Shown: positions 4,709 to 10,400, counted from the stretch's first letter. The stretch: DNA of 64,000 nt from Candidatus Nitrosopelagicus brevis (GCF_000812185.1 NZ_CP007026.1:557222-621221), one strand, 5' to 3'. Notes: generated from the letters alone by a model not told the origin. Numbers and translations are program-made.

Positions 4709-7168
4709 ATGAATAAATTACTAATATCTTCTGTTTGTATTCTGCTATTTTCAATATTATTTGTTAATTTTGGATATGCTGATGAAACATCATCTGAACC
4801 CGAAATTGCAATTCCTGATTTAGTAATTGATTTCAATAATGACAAAAATTGGCATGGTCTAAAATCTGGTGAAACGCCATATTGGAAAATAGAAGATGGT
4901 GTTGGAAAATTTAACATTCAACCAGGAACACTGGAACCTGGAAAGAGACAATTGGAGTCTGCATCAATTGATCTTGAAAATCTTTTAGGTGAACGAATTG
5001 GAGAAGATTGGGTTTTGAGGTATAAACTAACTATTGATGAATTTAAAATGGGTAGTGATTCTTCATGGTCTCAATTATTAATTGGATTATTTTCAAAACC
5101 TACCTCTGGAACTGCATCTGACATTACGCATGGTGATGCAAAACAATGGGGACTAGGTACTGCATTCATGACAGGCGTAGATATGAAACGTACAATGCTC
5201 ATGTATGACTTAGGATTTTACTTAGAATGGCATTCACAACCTGAAAAAGGTTCATTTGAAAATGAAAAATCACTTCCTGGCGAGAACAAAACATACTGGG
5301 TTGAATATAGGAAAATGAAAAATTTTCTTACAGTAAGTATTTTCGATGATAGTTCATTTGAAAGAGAAACCTTAGTTGAAAAACAACATACTGAAGGATG
5401 GGCTAATGTTGATGATCTGAAATATTTTAGATTATTCCCATTAATTGAAACAAATACTTCTGATGGAGTAATTACAGGAACTATTGATGATATTGAGTTT
5501 TATAATAACAAACGATATGTAACAAAAAACTTTGACGAAAAAGAACTTGAAGAAATAAAATCATTTGAAGAGAGACTAAATGAATTATTTGACAAACAAA
5601 ATCAATCAAATATTGATAAAGAAAATAAAAGACTTGAAAAATTAAAAAGAGAATCTATTCCTGAATGGTTAAAATTCCCTGCAGGTTTATGGTCTGATTC
5701 TAAATTGTCCAATAAACAATTCTTTCAGATAGTTGAATATTTGATAAAGCAAGATATTCTTGCAATCCCTCTCTCAAATTATGAATTATTTGATGATACT
5801 TACAAACCTCAGACAATAACACTTCCTTCTGAACCTGAATGTACTAATTGTGTAGAAACCAAATTGATAAATCTCCGATGGGTTTTGCCTGAAGAACTTG
5901 CAAAAAAGGGCTCAAATCCTCAAATATTAATTAAAAATCCTTCTAATGAAGTCACTAGTCTTAGTGCAACTAGTGATGATTCAATATCATACGAGATAAC
6001 AAATGAATTTGTTCCTGGAATTTATGATGTAGATATAATTTTTGCAAATGAAAAATTTTCTGCACCATCATTTTTGTTGTTAGAAACTGAAATTCCAAAA
6101 TTACCCTTTTGGATAAAGGATGATGCAAAAAAATGGTCACTTGATAAAAAACCAATTCAAAAATTTAAGGATATTTTAGATTTTTTAATTAAAGAAAAAT
6201 TCATTGATATTGAACCATCTGAATTCATAGTCCCAGAATCTATTCCGCCATTAACTCAAAAACAAATACTTCTAACCTATTTCCCTACAGATGATGAAAA
6301 AAATGCATTCGAACCATTCACTTGGAAATATTTTGAAGATTATTCACGAGGTATTTTTCAGTATAGAGCTCAAGAATCTATGTCCATACAAACTTCTGTA
6401 GGAAAAATATTGTATGATATTTCTAGACCATATGATCCAATCTACAACAAGAATCAAGTTCCGTACATTCTGATGGAATTATATCAGTATGAATCAAATG
6501 AAAATGCAAAATCATTTGTTGATAAATATCCTCGTGTTTACAATGCATTCTTTGATCAATCTGATATGAGTGGAACATCAGATTCTACAGGAGATTGTAT
6601 GTACAACAACCAAAAAAACTTTGTTGAATCTAGTATGGATGAAATACACATGGTGATTTGTATCTATGAAGACCTTGCATTATTAATTACGGTTTATGAA
6701 GATTATCCAAATGTTAATTCCTCATTAGTGTTTAACATAGCAGATATTATGTTTGAAAAAATTCATAATGGAAATGAATCTCCAAAATTACATAAAATAC
6801 TGAAACAAAATAGTTTTGAAGTTCAACCTGAATCAAAAACTGAATCTTCTCAAGAGCAAAATAATCCTCCCTCTCAAAATGATTCTGAATTATCTGGTAC
6901 AAAATTAGGAATTCAAAATTTCACTTGTATAAAAGATGATTTTGGAATGATTGAGATTAATGGTGAGTTTACAAATTCTGAAAAGTTTTTTGAAAAAATA
7001 GTTTTCAGTATTATTCTCAAGTCATATGATGGAACAAAATTGGCCCAAGGCGATTCTGAAATTTTAGATATTGAACCATTTGAAATACGAAAATTTGATG
7101 GATATGTAGAATTGAATGAGCCATTCTACGAATGTAGTGCGGTCATAAATTGGGACAAATCTAAGTAG
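4709..7168 (+). CDS. Exported multidomain protein: lectin-like domain, two degenerate W-rich repeats, FxLYD-like end
   Basis: The 819-residue protein has a signal peptide (ISSVCILLFSILFVNFGYA). Residues about 30-270 look like a concanavalin/laminin-G-like beta sandwich (NDKNWHGLKSGETPYWKIED through GVITGTIDDIEFYNN). A charged helix follows, then two divergent copies of the thaumarchaeal W-rich repeat, near 316 (IPEWLKFPAGLWSDSKL) and 464 (LPFWIKDDAKKWSLDKK). The last 90 residues (GTKLGIQNFTC to AVINWDKSK) fit an FxLYD-like beta domain. It shares its repeat with the next gene, so surface adhesion or complex assembly is a plausible role, but this is inference. It is third in the exported-protein run, 18 nt after the previous stop. 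Confidence 0.78.
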   Translation: MNKLLISSVCILLFSILFVNFGYADETSSEPEIAIPDLVIDFNNDKNWHGLKSGETPYWKIEDGVGKFNIQPGTLEPGKRQLESASIDLENLLGERIGEDWVLRYKLTIDEFKMGSDSSWSQLLIGLFSKPTSGTASDITHGDAKQWGLGTAFMTGVDMKRTMLMYDLGFYLEWHSQPEKGSFENEKSLPGENKTYWVEYRKMKNFLTVSIFDDSSFERETLVEKQHTEGWANVDDLKYFRLFPLIETNTSDGVITGTIDDIEFYNNKRYVTKNFDEKELEEIKSFEERLNELFDKQNQSNIDKENKRLEKLKRESIPEWLKFPAGLWSDSKLSNKQFFQIVEYLIKQDILAIPLSNYELFDDTYKPQTITLPSEPECTNCVETKLINLRWVLPEELAKKGSNPQILIKNPSNEVTSLSATSDDSISYEITNEFVPGIYDVDIIFANEKFSAPSFLLLETEIPKLPFWIKDDAKKWSLDKKPIQKFKDILDFLIKEKFIDIEPSEFIVPESIPPLTQKQILLTYFPTDDEKNAFEPFTWKYFEDYSRGIFQYRAQESMSIQTSVGKILYDISRPYDPIYNKNQVPYILMELYQYESNENAKSFVDKYPRVYNAFFDQSDMSGTSDSTGDCMYNNQKNFVESSMDEIHMVICIYEDLALLITVYEDYPNVNSSLVFNIADIMFEKIHNGNESPKLHKILKQNSFEVQPESKTESSQEQNNPPSQNDSELSGTKLGIQNFTCIKDDFGMIEINGEFTNSEKFFEKIVFSIILKSYDGTKLAQGDSEILDIEPFEIRKFDGYVELNEPFYECSAVINWDKSK

Positions 7169-7243
7169 TTTGTTCTAACTTTGTACTAATTCGAAAACCA
7201 AAACATATGCCTCTTTTTAATAACTGATTTTTTGACAAATTTC

Positions 7244-9010
7244 ATGCAAATACGAAAGTATGTAATACTAGGTTTATTCGCAGCAATACTCCTATACGTT
7301 CCAAGTTCAGGTTATGCAAACGCAGAATCTGTTCCAAACTGGGTTAAGACTAACGCAGGTTGGTGGGCAAGTGGAGATATTGATCAACAATCGTTTATTC
7401 AAGGAATTGAATATCTGGTGAACCAAGGAATAATCTCGGTCCCTGTCCAAAAAGTTTCTGGTGAAAAATCTGAAACTGTACCTGACTGGATTAAAAATAC
7501 CGCAGGATGGTGGGCAGAAGATGCAATCTCTGATGCTGAATTTGTTAGAGCAGTAGAGTTTCTAGTTGCTGAGAATATTATTTCTGTACAAGTTGATGCA
7601 TTAAATGAAATTAAGATGCCAACCTCCATCGGAAAAACAATAACTCTTGCAAAGTCTCCTGAAGGAACAAACTTTGAAGAAAGAGAAATGGACTATTACG
7701 ATGAAGACAAGTACAAGTTTGCAAAAAAACATGGTGATGGAATGGCATATCCTGGTGTAGTTATTGATGGTGACAGAAGTGCAGTACATGTTACTTATGC
7801 TGATACCGTTAATGGAGAGACCAATATTTTATTTACATCAACATATGATGGCGGAAACACTTGGACCGACCCAACAATTGTTAATGAACCTGGTAAAGCA
7901 AGCCGACCTCACATGGCCGGTGGTGCAATGTTGCAAGTAGGACCAGATGGTGAAATTTATGCACTGTATGGTCACTCTATCAAAAACCAAAAAGTCATGG
8001 ATGAAGGATTTGGACACGGTTATACCTACACAATCCTTGCACGTTCTGATGACGGTGGAAAAACATGGCCAATGCACACATTGATTGGTGATCCTAATAC
8101 TCACTATCATGATGCTGCAAATGGAATGATGCATTCAAAAACATTTGAAAGCTTTTCTATTCGTGATGATGGACGTGTTTACGTTGCATGGCTAGACTCT
8201 AGAGGTCAACAAAATGGTGGGTATACAACCGGACAAGTACGTATGCAATATTCTGACACTAATGGAGAATCATTTTCAAAATCTGTTATAGTCAAAAACA
8301 AAGTTTGTCCATGTTGTGCAACTGATATTTGTTCAAAAACTACAGGTGAAACATTTGTTCAATATAGAAATATAGTTGGAAATTACGGTGAGCCAAATTA
8401 TCGTGATATTGTTGTCTCAAAATCTGATGACCACGGCGCAGTTTGGAATCCACCAGAACTTGTAGGTGATGACGGATATGAGACCAATGGATGTGCTCAT
8501 ACAGTTTCCTCAATGGCTCTTGATAGCAATGGCTACTTGCATGCCGCATGGTATACAGGCGGTCGTTCTAATGCAGAAGGACCTGGTCTTTATTATGCAG
8601 TAAGCAAAGATGATGCTGAAACATGGTCTTATCCACTAAAAGTCTGGGGTGAAACATTCTTCCCTCCTGCACATATCAAAATTACTGTAGGCACAGATGA
8701 TGTACCAAGAATGGCATGGTCTGATAGAACAGTTGATGGTGGTGCAGTCTACACCGCAGCAGTTAATCCAAATAATGGAAAACTCACTGAAGCACAAAAA
8801 GTTGGTGTTGGTGACAATGCTTGGATAAGTTCTGTAGGGGGTGTTACCGCAATGACTTGGAATAGTTCAAGCGTTTGGGTAGATGAAGACAAACTCGACG
8901 AAGATGGTGTTTTCGAAGACTGGAAGGATGGTCAATATTCTGGTGGAAACGTCAAGGATAAACAGACTAAAGGTGAAATCTTTGTTAAAATCTGGGATGA
9001 CCGATTATAG
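7244..9010 (+). CDS. Exported sialidase-like (Asp-box) beta-propeller with two W-rich repeats and a CPCC motif
   Basis: The 588-residue protein has a signal peptide (YVILGLFAAILLYVPSSGYA). Two near-identical W-rich repeats follow at residues ~30-65 and ~79-115 (VPNWVKTNAGWWASGDI; VPDWIKNTAGWWAEDAI). The rest is a BNR/Asp-box propeller with blades marked YDGGNTW (~200), SDDGGKTW (~267), SDTNGESF (~337), SDDHGAVW (~393) and KDDAETW (~455). KVCPCCATDIC near residue 356 is a cysteine cluster also seen in bacterial sialidase-like exported proteins. Classical sialidase arginine-triad residues were not identified, so enzymatic activity is uncertain. The start at ATG 7244 is preferred over TTG 7232. 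The 3' end overlaps the TlpA-CcdA gene by 14 nt. Confidence 0.85.
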   Translation: MQIRKYVILGLFAAILLYVPSSGYANAESVPNWVKTNAGWWASGDIDQQSFIQGIEYLVNQGIISVPVQKVSGEKSETVPDWIKNTAGWWAEDAISDAEFVRAVEFLVAENIISVQVDALNEIKMPTSIGKTITLAKSPEGTNFEEREMDYYDEDKYKFAKKHGDGMAYPGVVIDGDRSAVHVTYADTVNGETNILFTSTYDGGNTWTDPTIVNEPGKASRPHMAGGAMLQVGPDGEIYALYGHSIKNQKVMDEGFGHGYTYTILARSDDGGKTWPMHTLIGDPNTHYHDAANGMMHSKTFESFSIRDDGRVYVAWLDSRGQQNGGYTTGQVRMQYSDTNGESFSKSVIVKNKVCPCCATDICSKTTGETFVQYRNIVGNYGEPNYRDIVVSKSDDHGAVWNPPELVGDDGYETNGCAHTVSSMALDSNGYLHAAWYTGGRSNAEGPGLYYAVSKDDAETWSYPLKVWGETFFPPAHIKITVGTDDVPRMAWSDRTVDGGAVYTAAVNPNNGKLTEAQKVGVGDNAWISSVGGVTAMTWNSSSVWVDEDKLDEDGVFEDWKDGQYSGGNVKDKQTKGEIFVKIWDDRL

Positions 9011-10400
9011 GAAAATCCTATTTCTCACTTTTTCTATTCTCTTATTCACGTCTAGCGTAAGCGTCGCTTATGCTCAAGATGAACCAAAAACATATCCAAA
9101 TTATCGTGCATATGATTATGATGGAAATACTGTAAGACTTACTGACTTTGAAGGGCAAGTTGTATTGCTAAATGTTTGGGCAACTTGGTGTATCGAATGT
9201 TTAGAAGAGATGCCATATCTTAATGAACTTAACAAAGAATATTCTCCATCCGGCCTTAAGACACTCAGTGTAAGTATTGATACCATATCTCCTGATATTG
9301 TAAAAGAATTTGCTGATGACATGGATATGACCACTGAAATTTGGTATGATCCTCGAAATAATGCCACTCGTGAATTTAGAATGATGGGTCCTCCTATCAC
9401 ACTTTTGATCAACGGAAATGGTGAACTGATTCATGAATGGAAAGGTCCAATTTTTGAAGGAACCGATGTTGAAATGCGAATTGAAAGTGCATTAGGGTTA
9501 ACAGGAATTGAAGAATCACAAGAACAAATACAGAACTTTGAATTATCTCAAATGGATCAACTTAGTATAGGTGTAGCATTTGCCGCAGGTTTGTTGAGTT
9601 TCTTATCTCCTTGCGTTTTACCATTAATTCCAGCATATGCTTCATTTATCACAGGAATGAGTTTGAGAGATTTATCTAATGCACAAAGTTCTGGCAAACC
9701 TGGAAAGTTTAATCAAGATGAAATTACTGAATCTACAACTGGTCATGAGGAAGTCATAGGCCAATCTGCATCAAAATTCAGAATACAAACAATGGTATTG
9801 TCAAAAGGACTTTTGTTTGTTTTAGGATTTTCAATAATTTTTGTCATATTGGGTTCTGCTGTTTCTTATGCAGGAACAATGTTTGACGAAGCAACATTGT
9901 GGGTTGAAAGAATTGGCGGAATCGTACTAATTACATTTGGACTTCATTTGATTGGAATTTTAAAGCTTAACAAATTGAATATGCAAAAATCAATGAACTT
10001 CCAAAATCGCTCTACAAAAAATATTGGTTCATTATTTGTAGGAATGGCATTTGGTGCAGGATGGACTCCTTGCATTGGTCCGATTCTTGCTGGAATTCTA
10101 ACGATGGCTGCTACTAGTTCTAGTTGGGGTGCAGGAACATCTCTTCTCATAGCATATTCTGCAGGACTTGCGATTCCATTTATCATATCTGCATTAGCAA
10201 TTGATCGTTTTATGACATTCTTTAACAAAATAAAACGCTGGATTGGTTGGATTGAACGCGGTAGTGGAATATTGCTCATAGGAATTGGTGGATTACTACT
10301 CACCGGCTCATTATCAGTACTTGCATCGTATTTCCCAAATACTGAGATTAACCTTGATTCACTTTTGCATCCAATGTCTACTCTAAAACATTCTAGTTAG
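8997..10400 (+). CDS. TlpA-type thioredoxin fused to CcdA/DsbD membrane domain
   Basis: The 467-residue protein has a signal peptide (ILFLTFSILLFTSSVSVAYA), then an extracytoplasmic TlpA/thioredoxin domain with active site WCIEC (cysteines near residues 65 and 68) and a cis-Pro region (GPPITLLI). A six-helix CcdA domain follows, with its two membrane cysteines in LSPCVLPLIPA (~206) and GWTPCIGPI (~359). CcdA proteins move reducing power from cytoplasmic thioredoxin to thiol enzymes outside the membrane; here acceptor and donor are one chain. The ATG at 8997 places the signal peptide first and overlaps the propeller gene by 14 nt, suggesting translational coupling and a shared role. Confidence 0.92.
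   Translation: MTDYRKILFLTFSILLFTSSVSVAYAQDEPKTYPNYRAYDYDGNTVRLTDFEGQVVLLNVWATWCIECLEEMPYLNELNKEYSPSGLKTLSVSIDTISPDIVKEFADDMDMTTEIWYDPRNNATREFRMMGPPITLLINGNGELIHEWKGPIFEGTDVEMRIESALGLTGIEESQEQIQNFELSQMDQLSIGVAFAAGLLSFLSPCVLPLIPAYASFITGMSLRDLSNAQSSGKPGKFNQDEITESTTGHEEVIGQSASKFRIQTMVLSKGLLFVLGFSIIFVILGSAVSYAGTMFDEATLWVERIGGIVLITFGLHLIGILKLNKLNMQKSMNFQNRSTKNIGSLFVGMAFGAGWTPCIGPILAGILTMAATSSSWGAGTSLLIAYSAGLAIPFIISALAIDRFMTFFNKIKRWIGWIERGSGILLIGIGGLLLTGSLSVLASYFPNTEINLDSLLHPMSTLKHSS

Follow-up and report, generated by a model that had tools for sequence, protein, structure and literature searches.

Why does the gene of an exported protein, whose homologues elsewhere are labelled 'sialidase family protein', overlap the gene of a thiol-reducing membrane protein? 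This arrangement was analyzed in a window of 64,000 nucleotides (the whole stretch of DNA under study) from the 1.23 Mb, single-contig genome of Candidatus Nitrosopelagicus brevis. The initial annotation of the window had suggested that a TlpA-CcdA fusion protein keeps the cysteines of a CPCC-containing propeller reduced or loads a metal onto them. The analysis described here supports this redox or metal-handling reading and narrows it to copper, whereby the cysteines would be kept reduced and would bind the metal.

The propeller gene and the TlpA-CcdA fusion gene

As had been read from the window at the outset, a gene for a CPCC-type exported propeller overlaps the start of a TlpA-CcdA gene by 14 nt, and both open reading frames were recovered at the following positions:

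7244..9010, + strand: gene of the exported CxCC Asp-box propeller, 588 aa and a stop codon, ATG at 7244
7244..7327, + strand: probable signal peptide MQIRKYVILGLFAAILLYVPSSGYANAE, predicted by sequence inspection
7331..7600, + strand: two tandem 'VPxW(V/I)KxxAGWW' repeats at the N-terminus of the propeller protein
7604..9007, + strand: propeller domain, the segment used for searches and modelling; in the model its blades near the cysteines are four-stranded
8997..9010, + strand: overlap of propeller and fusion genes, exactly 14 nt
8997..10400, + strand: gene of the TlpA-CcdA fusion, 467 aa and a stop codon, ATG at 8997
9189..9200, + strand: WCIEC redox pair of the TlpA domain, Cys65 and Cys68
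9612..9614, + strand: first CcdA cysteine, Cys206 (LSPCVLP)
10071..10073, + strand: second CcdA cysteine, Cys359 (WTPCIGP)

The propeller matched the Pfam model BNR_2 (5e-11) and contains five cysteines (residues 355, 357, 358, 363 and 417), with the sequence KVCPCCATDIC at residues 353-363. Its N-terminal GWW repeats matched no Pfam or NCBIfam model and are missing in the propeller homologues of Nitrososphaeraceae, of bacteria and of several Nitrosopumilaceae. Tandem repeats of the form 'VPxWVKxxAGWW...GII' also occur in the upstream gene (4709-7168) and at about 12 places genome-wide, likewise without a Pfam or NCBIfam model.

In the fusion protein a secreted thioredoxin domain is followed by a CcdA/DsbD_TM membrane domain. 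Matches above the curated Pfam cut-offs were obtained for AhpC-TSA (3.9e-19) and Redoxin (6.9e-16), and DsbD_TM was detected with 5.6e-16. The protein has the secreted thioredoxin fold with WCxxC that characterizes the TlpA/ResA family, with scores below the cut-offs of the NCBIfam TlpA and ResA models, and the two membrane cysteines of the CcdA/DsbD transmembrane family. Its only four cysteines form the two redox pairs, residues 65 and 68 (WCIEC) and residues 206 and 359 (CcdA). The fusion would form a minimal electron relay from the cytoplasm to the outside.

Conservation of the cysteine site and of the gene pair

Comparison of the propeller with its homologues in archaea, Alpha- and Gammaproteobacteria, Bacteroidota, Planctomycetota and Actinomycetota revealed an invariant set, which comprises the CxCC cysteines, a fourth cysteine about 50-90 residues further on, an arginine between them and an aspartate, nearly always as Arg-Asp. 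C363 lies outside this set. In the window its members are:

8306..8317, + strand: codons of CxCC (Cys355-Pro-Cys357-Cys358), which the propeller model places on a D-to-A loop
8366..8368, + strand: Arg375, invariant in archaeal and bacterial homologues
8402..8407, + strand: Arg387-Asp388, Asp invariant and Arg nearly so
8492..8494, + strand: Cys417, fourth cysteine of the conserved set, placed by the model on the following D-to-A loop

CxCC and a cysteine equivalent to C417 were present in 42/42 homologues from bacterial genome searches and were invariant in two mixed archaeal/bacterial alignments. The conservation of the cysteines in orthologues, on which the initial annotation had staked its reading, was therefore confirmed in archaea and bacteria. 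We define the CxCC propeller family by CxCC, the fourth cysteine, the arginine and Arg-Asp, all of which are present in the window propeller.

Modelling of the propeller, which had also been called for initially, located the cysteines on neighbouring loops. Four-stranded blades were seen in both predicted models, one for the window domain (pLDDT 68.5) and one for a Burkholderiales homologue (pLDDT 84.8), and in their strand order CxCC falls on one D-to-A loop, the fourth cysteine on the next, and Arg and Arg-Asp around the intervening B-C loop, the placement being read from the secondary-structure strings of the models. Since these loops share one face of the propeller, a joint site of the cysteines with Arg and Arg-Asp is plausible in the models.

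Such a site could also belong to a redox enzyme, a cupric or other small-molecule reductase with TlpA-CcdA as electron donor, in which the cysteines and the Arg/Arg-Asp would be catalytic and not carry copper. The invariant Arg and Arg-Asp beside the cysteines, the position of these residues on loops of one face in neighbouring blades of the models and the dedicated thioredoxin, a usual electron donor, agree with this reading. However, Cu(I) is a soft ion and thiolate clusters are its typical binders, and Pfam and structural searches revealed no cofactor motif or known reductase fold. A reductase is therefore rather unlikely in our judgement.

Sequence searches of the PDB yielded no solved structure of the CxCC propeller family and no full-length match. 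Structural matches in the PDB were mostly sialidases and Photorhabdus lectins, with identities of 9-17% and with TM-scores, relative to the query, of 0.33-0.58. Proteins of this kind have been taken as sialidases that act on the biofilm matrix (PMC12448741, PMC11561398), and 'sialidases' adjoining a ccd gene were described at NFRAN_2146-2155 (PMC12448741). In studies of biofilm or surface growth of ammonia-oxidizing archaea (AOA), sialidase and copC/D genes were upregulated, and one such study suggested the neighbouring ccd gene as electron source for the sialidases. The Asp-box propeller fold, the sialidases among the best PDB matches and the rise of sialidase-annotated genes in AOA biofilms would fit a true sialidase or another glycan-cleaving enzyme in the biofilm matrix. 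Yet the structural similarity is low, and the N-terminal (F/Y)RIP arginine motif of GH33 sialidases, which belongs to the catalytic triad, was absent: [FYW]R[IVL]P was found within the first 150 aa in 0/42 bacterial homologues, nor did the window protein contain it. What is conserved are the cysteines and not the sialidase set. Given the missing RIP motif and the copper context described below, a glycan-cleaving function appears highly improbable.

The gene pair was then surveyed in 250 genomes of Nitrososphaeria, the class to which AOA belong. Propeller relatives were detected in 29 genomes and CxCC in 24, while weak propeller matches in five genomes (G173, G186, G208, G246 and G248) showed no CxCC in the stretches examined and no fusion. 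The full TlpA-CcdA fusion was likewise found in 24/250 genomes which, among the matches listed, were the same 24 that carry the CxCC propeller; again among the matches listed, most remaining genomes either gave no match or encoded only CcdA by itself, as a protein of about 245 aa. Among the 24 carriers, 22 have the propeller gene directly upstream of the fusion gene on the same strand, mostly overlapping it or within 35 nt. Of the other two, one is rearranged, with the propeller 254 nt after the fusion (G092), and one has a truncated propeller start 11 nt upstream of the fusion and a split copy downstream (G099). With 5-11 AhpC-TSA domains per archaeal genome tested, such a neighbour would be expected by chance in about 1% of cases. 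Adjacency of propeller and fusion, whose lack was to count against the proposed coupling, was thus borne out. Soil genomes often contain several CxCC paralogues near the fusion. As the pair occurs in about 10% of the sampled Nitrososphaeria, it is accessory.

In Bradyrhizobium, TlpA acts as reductant of CoxB and of the copper chaperone ScoI (PMC6696091), and by analogy TlpA-CcdA might serve the maturation of CuA or another cuproenzyme, with the propeller as an incidental neighbour. Against this, fusion and CxCC propeller occurred together in 24/24 genomes and neither occurred alone, among the matches listed. Copper oxidases, moreover, are expected in nearly all AOA, unlike the pair, and we give this explanation very little credence.

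Bacterial Asp-box proteins with such a cluster had been placed near thiol-redox genes in the initial annotation, which proved true for several lineages. In Gammaproteobacteria a TlpA-type thioredoxin is encoded downstream of the propeller in 9/14 loci, 7 of which also have a TonB-dependent receptor adjoining the propeller. Such clusters, in which the receptor is encoded together with the CxCC propeller and a thioredoxin, are found in L225, L227, L228, L229, L230, L232 and L233. The best score of the receptors against the copper-receptor model TIGR01778 was 50 bits with a cut-off of 472, and the reading of them as known copper receptors was rejected on this ground. The idea that ammonia or methane oxidizers are the sole gammaproteobacterial carriers was likewise rejected, as PF02461 matched in just 2/12 genomes. 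A TlpA gene follows the propeller in 7/61 loci of Alphaproteobacteria, a sample biased to Rhodobacterales by the Roseobacter-based query and alignment. Among the Bacteroidota loci, 4/24 have a TlpA gene ahead of the propeller and most copies are without a thioredoxin neighbour, so that the locus does not in every case include the redox partner.

In a quick tree the archaeal sequences formed one well-supported group near the gammaproteobacterial group with thioredoxin partners, and the well-supported branches forced at least 10 changes of the thioredoxin-neighbour label. The differing gene orders suggest that the pairing of propeller and thioredoxin arose more than once.

Copper genes and a promoter motif at the propeller loci

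Plasmid-borne propeller copies in Roseobacteraceae, Runella, Adhaeribacter and Methylomagnum lie amid copper genes, namely those for CopC, CopD, multicopper oxidases, Cu ATPases, plastocyanin-like proteins and RND efflux (CusA). On the Methylomagnum plasmid CopC adjoins the propeller and amoCAB is located about 5 kb away; amoCAB, the CxCC propeller and CopC are contained within about 9 kb (L067, 202-9385). One Spirosoma copy has a bilirubin-oxidase-type gene at a distance of about 6 kb. A copper gene was found within 5 kb in 44/61 alphaproteobacterial loci, or in 17/32 after dereplication at 85%. Few of the Bacteroidota copies have copper neighbours. Around the gammaproteobacterial and Bacteroidota copies, the copper reference queries matched 7/610 ORFs, which shows that these queries are not promiscuous and also that copper neighbours are not universal.

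The near-invariant four cysteines are also compatible with two structural disulfides, in which case the thioredoxin protein would be a folding or isomerising helper and the link to copper one of regulation only. Disulfides are common in secreted proteins with conserved cysteines, and DsbA-family genes lie near some alphaproteobacterial copies. TlpA and CcdA proteins are reductants, however, and the association with copper genes across several lineages would need another cause; we consider structural disulfides unlikely.

A study of Nitrososphaera viennensis describes a common motif, TTCSGSMTTTGWACYANT, at -35 to -70 of genes induced by copper limitation (PMC7785015). A related element was identified in front of the propeller gene:

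7173..7190, + strand: promoter element TTCTAACTTTGTACTAAT, which begins 71 nt upstream of the propeller ATG and matches TTCN6TGWACYANT, a relaxed form of the N. viennensis motif (PMC7785015)

Compared with the full motif, the window element has 3 mismatches and a perfect core. Matches of that quality occur 6 times in the window with about 3 expected, so that the weight rests on position and recurrence of the motif. TTCN6TGWACNA, a relaxation picked after these sequences had been viewed and with the spacing of the published motif, was found upstream of 20/32 archaeal propellers versus 17/273 of the remaining ORFs on these stretches (p=1.7e-13). When close copies were counted once, 12/24 archaeal propellers carried it (p=9e-8). 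The reversed pattern gave 0 matches and spacings of 4, 5, 7, 8 and 9 gave at most 1. From the motif, the pair would be induced under copper limitation in the species of the window as well. Elsewhere in the host genome, a motif match lies 180 nt before a second GWW-repeat gene (G000:C1:501797-501814).

Among the 17 other ORFs with the motif were genes of CopC-like proteins, a single gene for TlpA-CcdA and members of two families, exported or of the membrane, that recur near the motif in genome G131. In several soil AOA the motif also precedes an exported 'AHQ(R/I)xLY..GKDYL' family, in which His is probably the first residue after signal cleavage and which is, judged by its sequence, a candidate histidine-brace copper protein; it likewise precedes a small membrane protein with a His-containing stretch:

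L054 6343-6999; L058 10772-11362; L060 7248-7886 and 11709-12311; L258 715-1467: 'AHQ(R/I)xLY..GKDYL' family
L043 8975-9334; L049 14753-15151; L050 14879-15277; L256 1060-1464: small His-stretch membrane protein

Genome G131 is very probably that of N. viennensis. Here the distance between the pair of propeller and fusion and two CopC-bearing frames is about 12-17 kb, and the N-terminal ORF of the propeller is preceded, at 53 nt, by the motif. In the available part of the N. viennensis study, DsbD_a (NVIE_014160) belongs to a putative operon near copC/D whose first gene has the motif, 'sialidase' and 'DsbD' are drawn in the clusters induced by copper limitation, and 'sialidase' is named only in the legend of that figure (PMC7785015). 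A frameshift divides the propeller of the N. viennensis-like genome (L059, 8683-10142) into a signal-peptide ORF (9915-10142) and a main ORF (8683-9897). This split may account for the oddly named NVIE_1444 at the start of the operon.

A proposed copper module and its relation to known systems

On the grounds of same-genome co-occurrence, adjacency, conserved residues, copper neighbours and the promoter motif, we favour a role of the pair as a module for copper acquisition outside the cytoplasm, with TlpA-CcdA maintaining a Cu(I)-thiolate propeller in the reduced state, and consider this fairly probable. Copper shortage would induce the pair, and the secreted propeller would present CxCC on one loop and the single cysteine on the next, near Arg and Arg-Asp. 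Its cysteines would bind Cu(I), or reduce Cu(II) and then bind it. Electrons would pass from cytoplasmic thioredoxin via CcdA across the membrane to the TlpA domain, which would keep the propeller thiols reduced, and the loaded propeller might deliver its copper either for uptake or to the cuproenzymes that carry out ammonia oxidation and respiration. The clusters in bacteria speak for copper resistance no less than for acquisition, and given these contexts the same site may serve detoxification too.

As a wider and more tentative proposal, archaea and at least four bacterial phyla might share a family of secreted Cu(I)-thiolate propellers, misannotated as sialidases, that draw electrons from a dedicated thioredoxin-based source and serve to capture or reduce copper. 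In some Gammaproteobacteria they would be combined with a TonB receptor, and in ammonia oxidizers they would supply the copper enzymes. AOA depend on copper enzymes, and how they gather extracellular copper is poorly known. If true, the proposal would give a widespread 'sialidase' family a function, correct the biofilm-matrix reading, link archaeal and bacterial copper handling via one cysteine site, and let the conserved promoter motif predict further members of the archaeal copper regulon.

The module was initially considered as possibly undescribed. This holds for its interpretation, which the publications named below do not give, and the literature search returned no described CxCC or copper BNR protein. 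It does not hold for the gene clusters (PMC7785015) or for the adjacency of ccd and sialidase genes (PMC12448741), which have been published. The copper-limitation regulon of N. viennensis has in common with the present locus a DsbD-family gene, a 'sialidase' and the same motif, in relaxed form here; in the available part of that paper the sialidase is drawn without connection to the DsbD gene, to CxCC or to bacterial copper homologues (PMC7785015). NFRAN_2146-2155 very probably represent the same family and adjacency, judged by their description, but were taken there as enzymes that cleave sialic acid and modify the biofilm matrix (PMC12448741).

With GH33 sialidases the CxCC propellers have the Asp-box beta-propeller fold in common, as is evident from BNR_2, Foldseek and profile matches, whereas in the homologues tested four cysteines are kept instead of the RIP motif. 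The Scs system (ScsB/ScsC) and DsbD likewise tie a DsbD-type membrane electron carrier to copper; there the partner is the thioredoxin-fold ScsC, here a propeller. A precedent for the function proposed here is the action of TlpA on ScoI and CoxB, where copper proteins outside the cytoplasm have their cysteines reduced by a membrane-linked thioredoxin before they are metallated (PMC6696091). In the present case, the target would be an Asp-box propeller with CxCC and a further cysteine in place of Sco or CoxB, and TlpA is fused to CcdA and paired with its putative target at the gene level.
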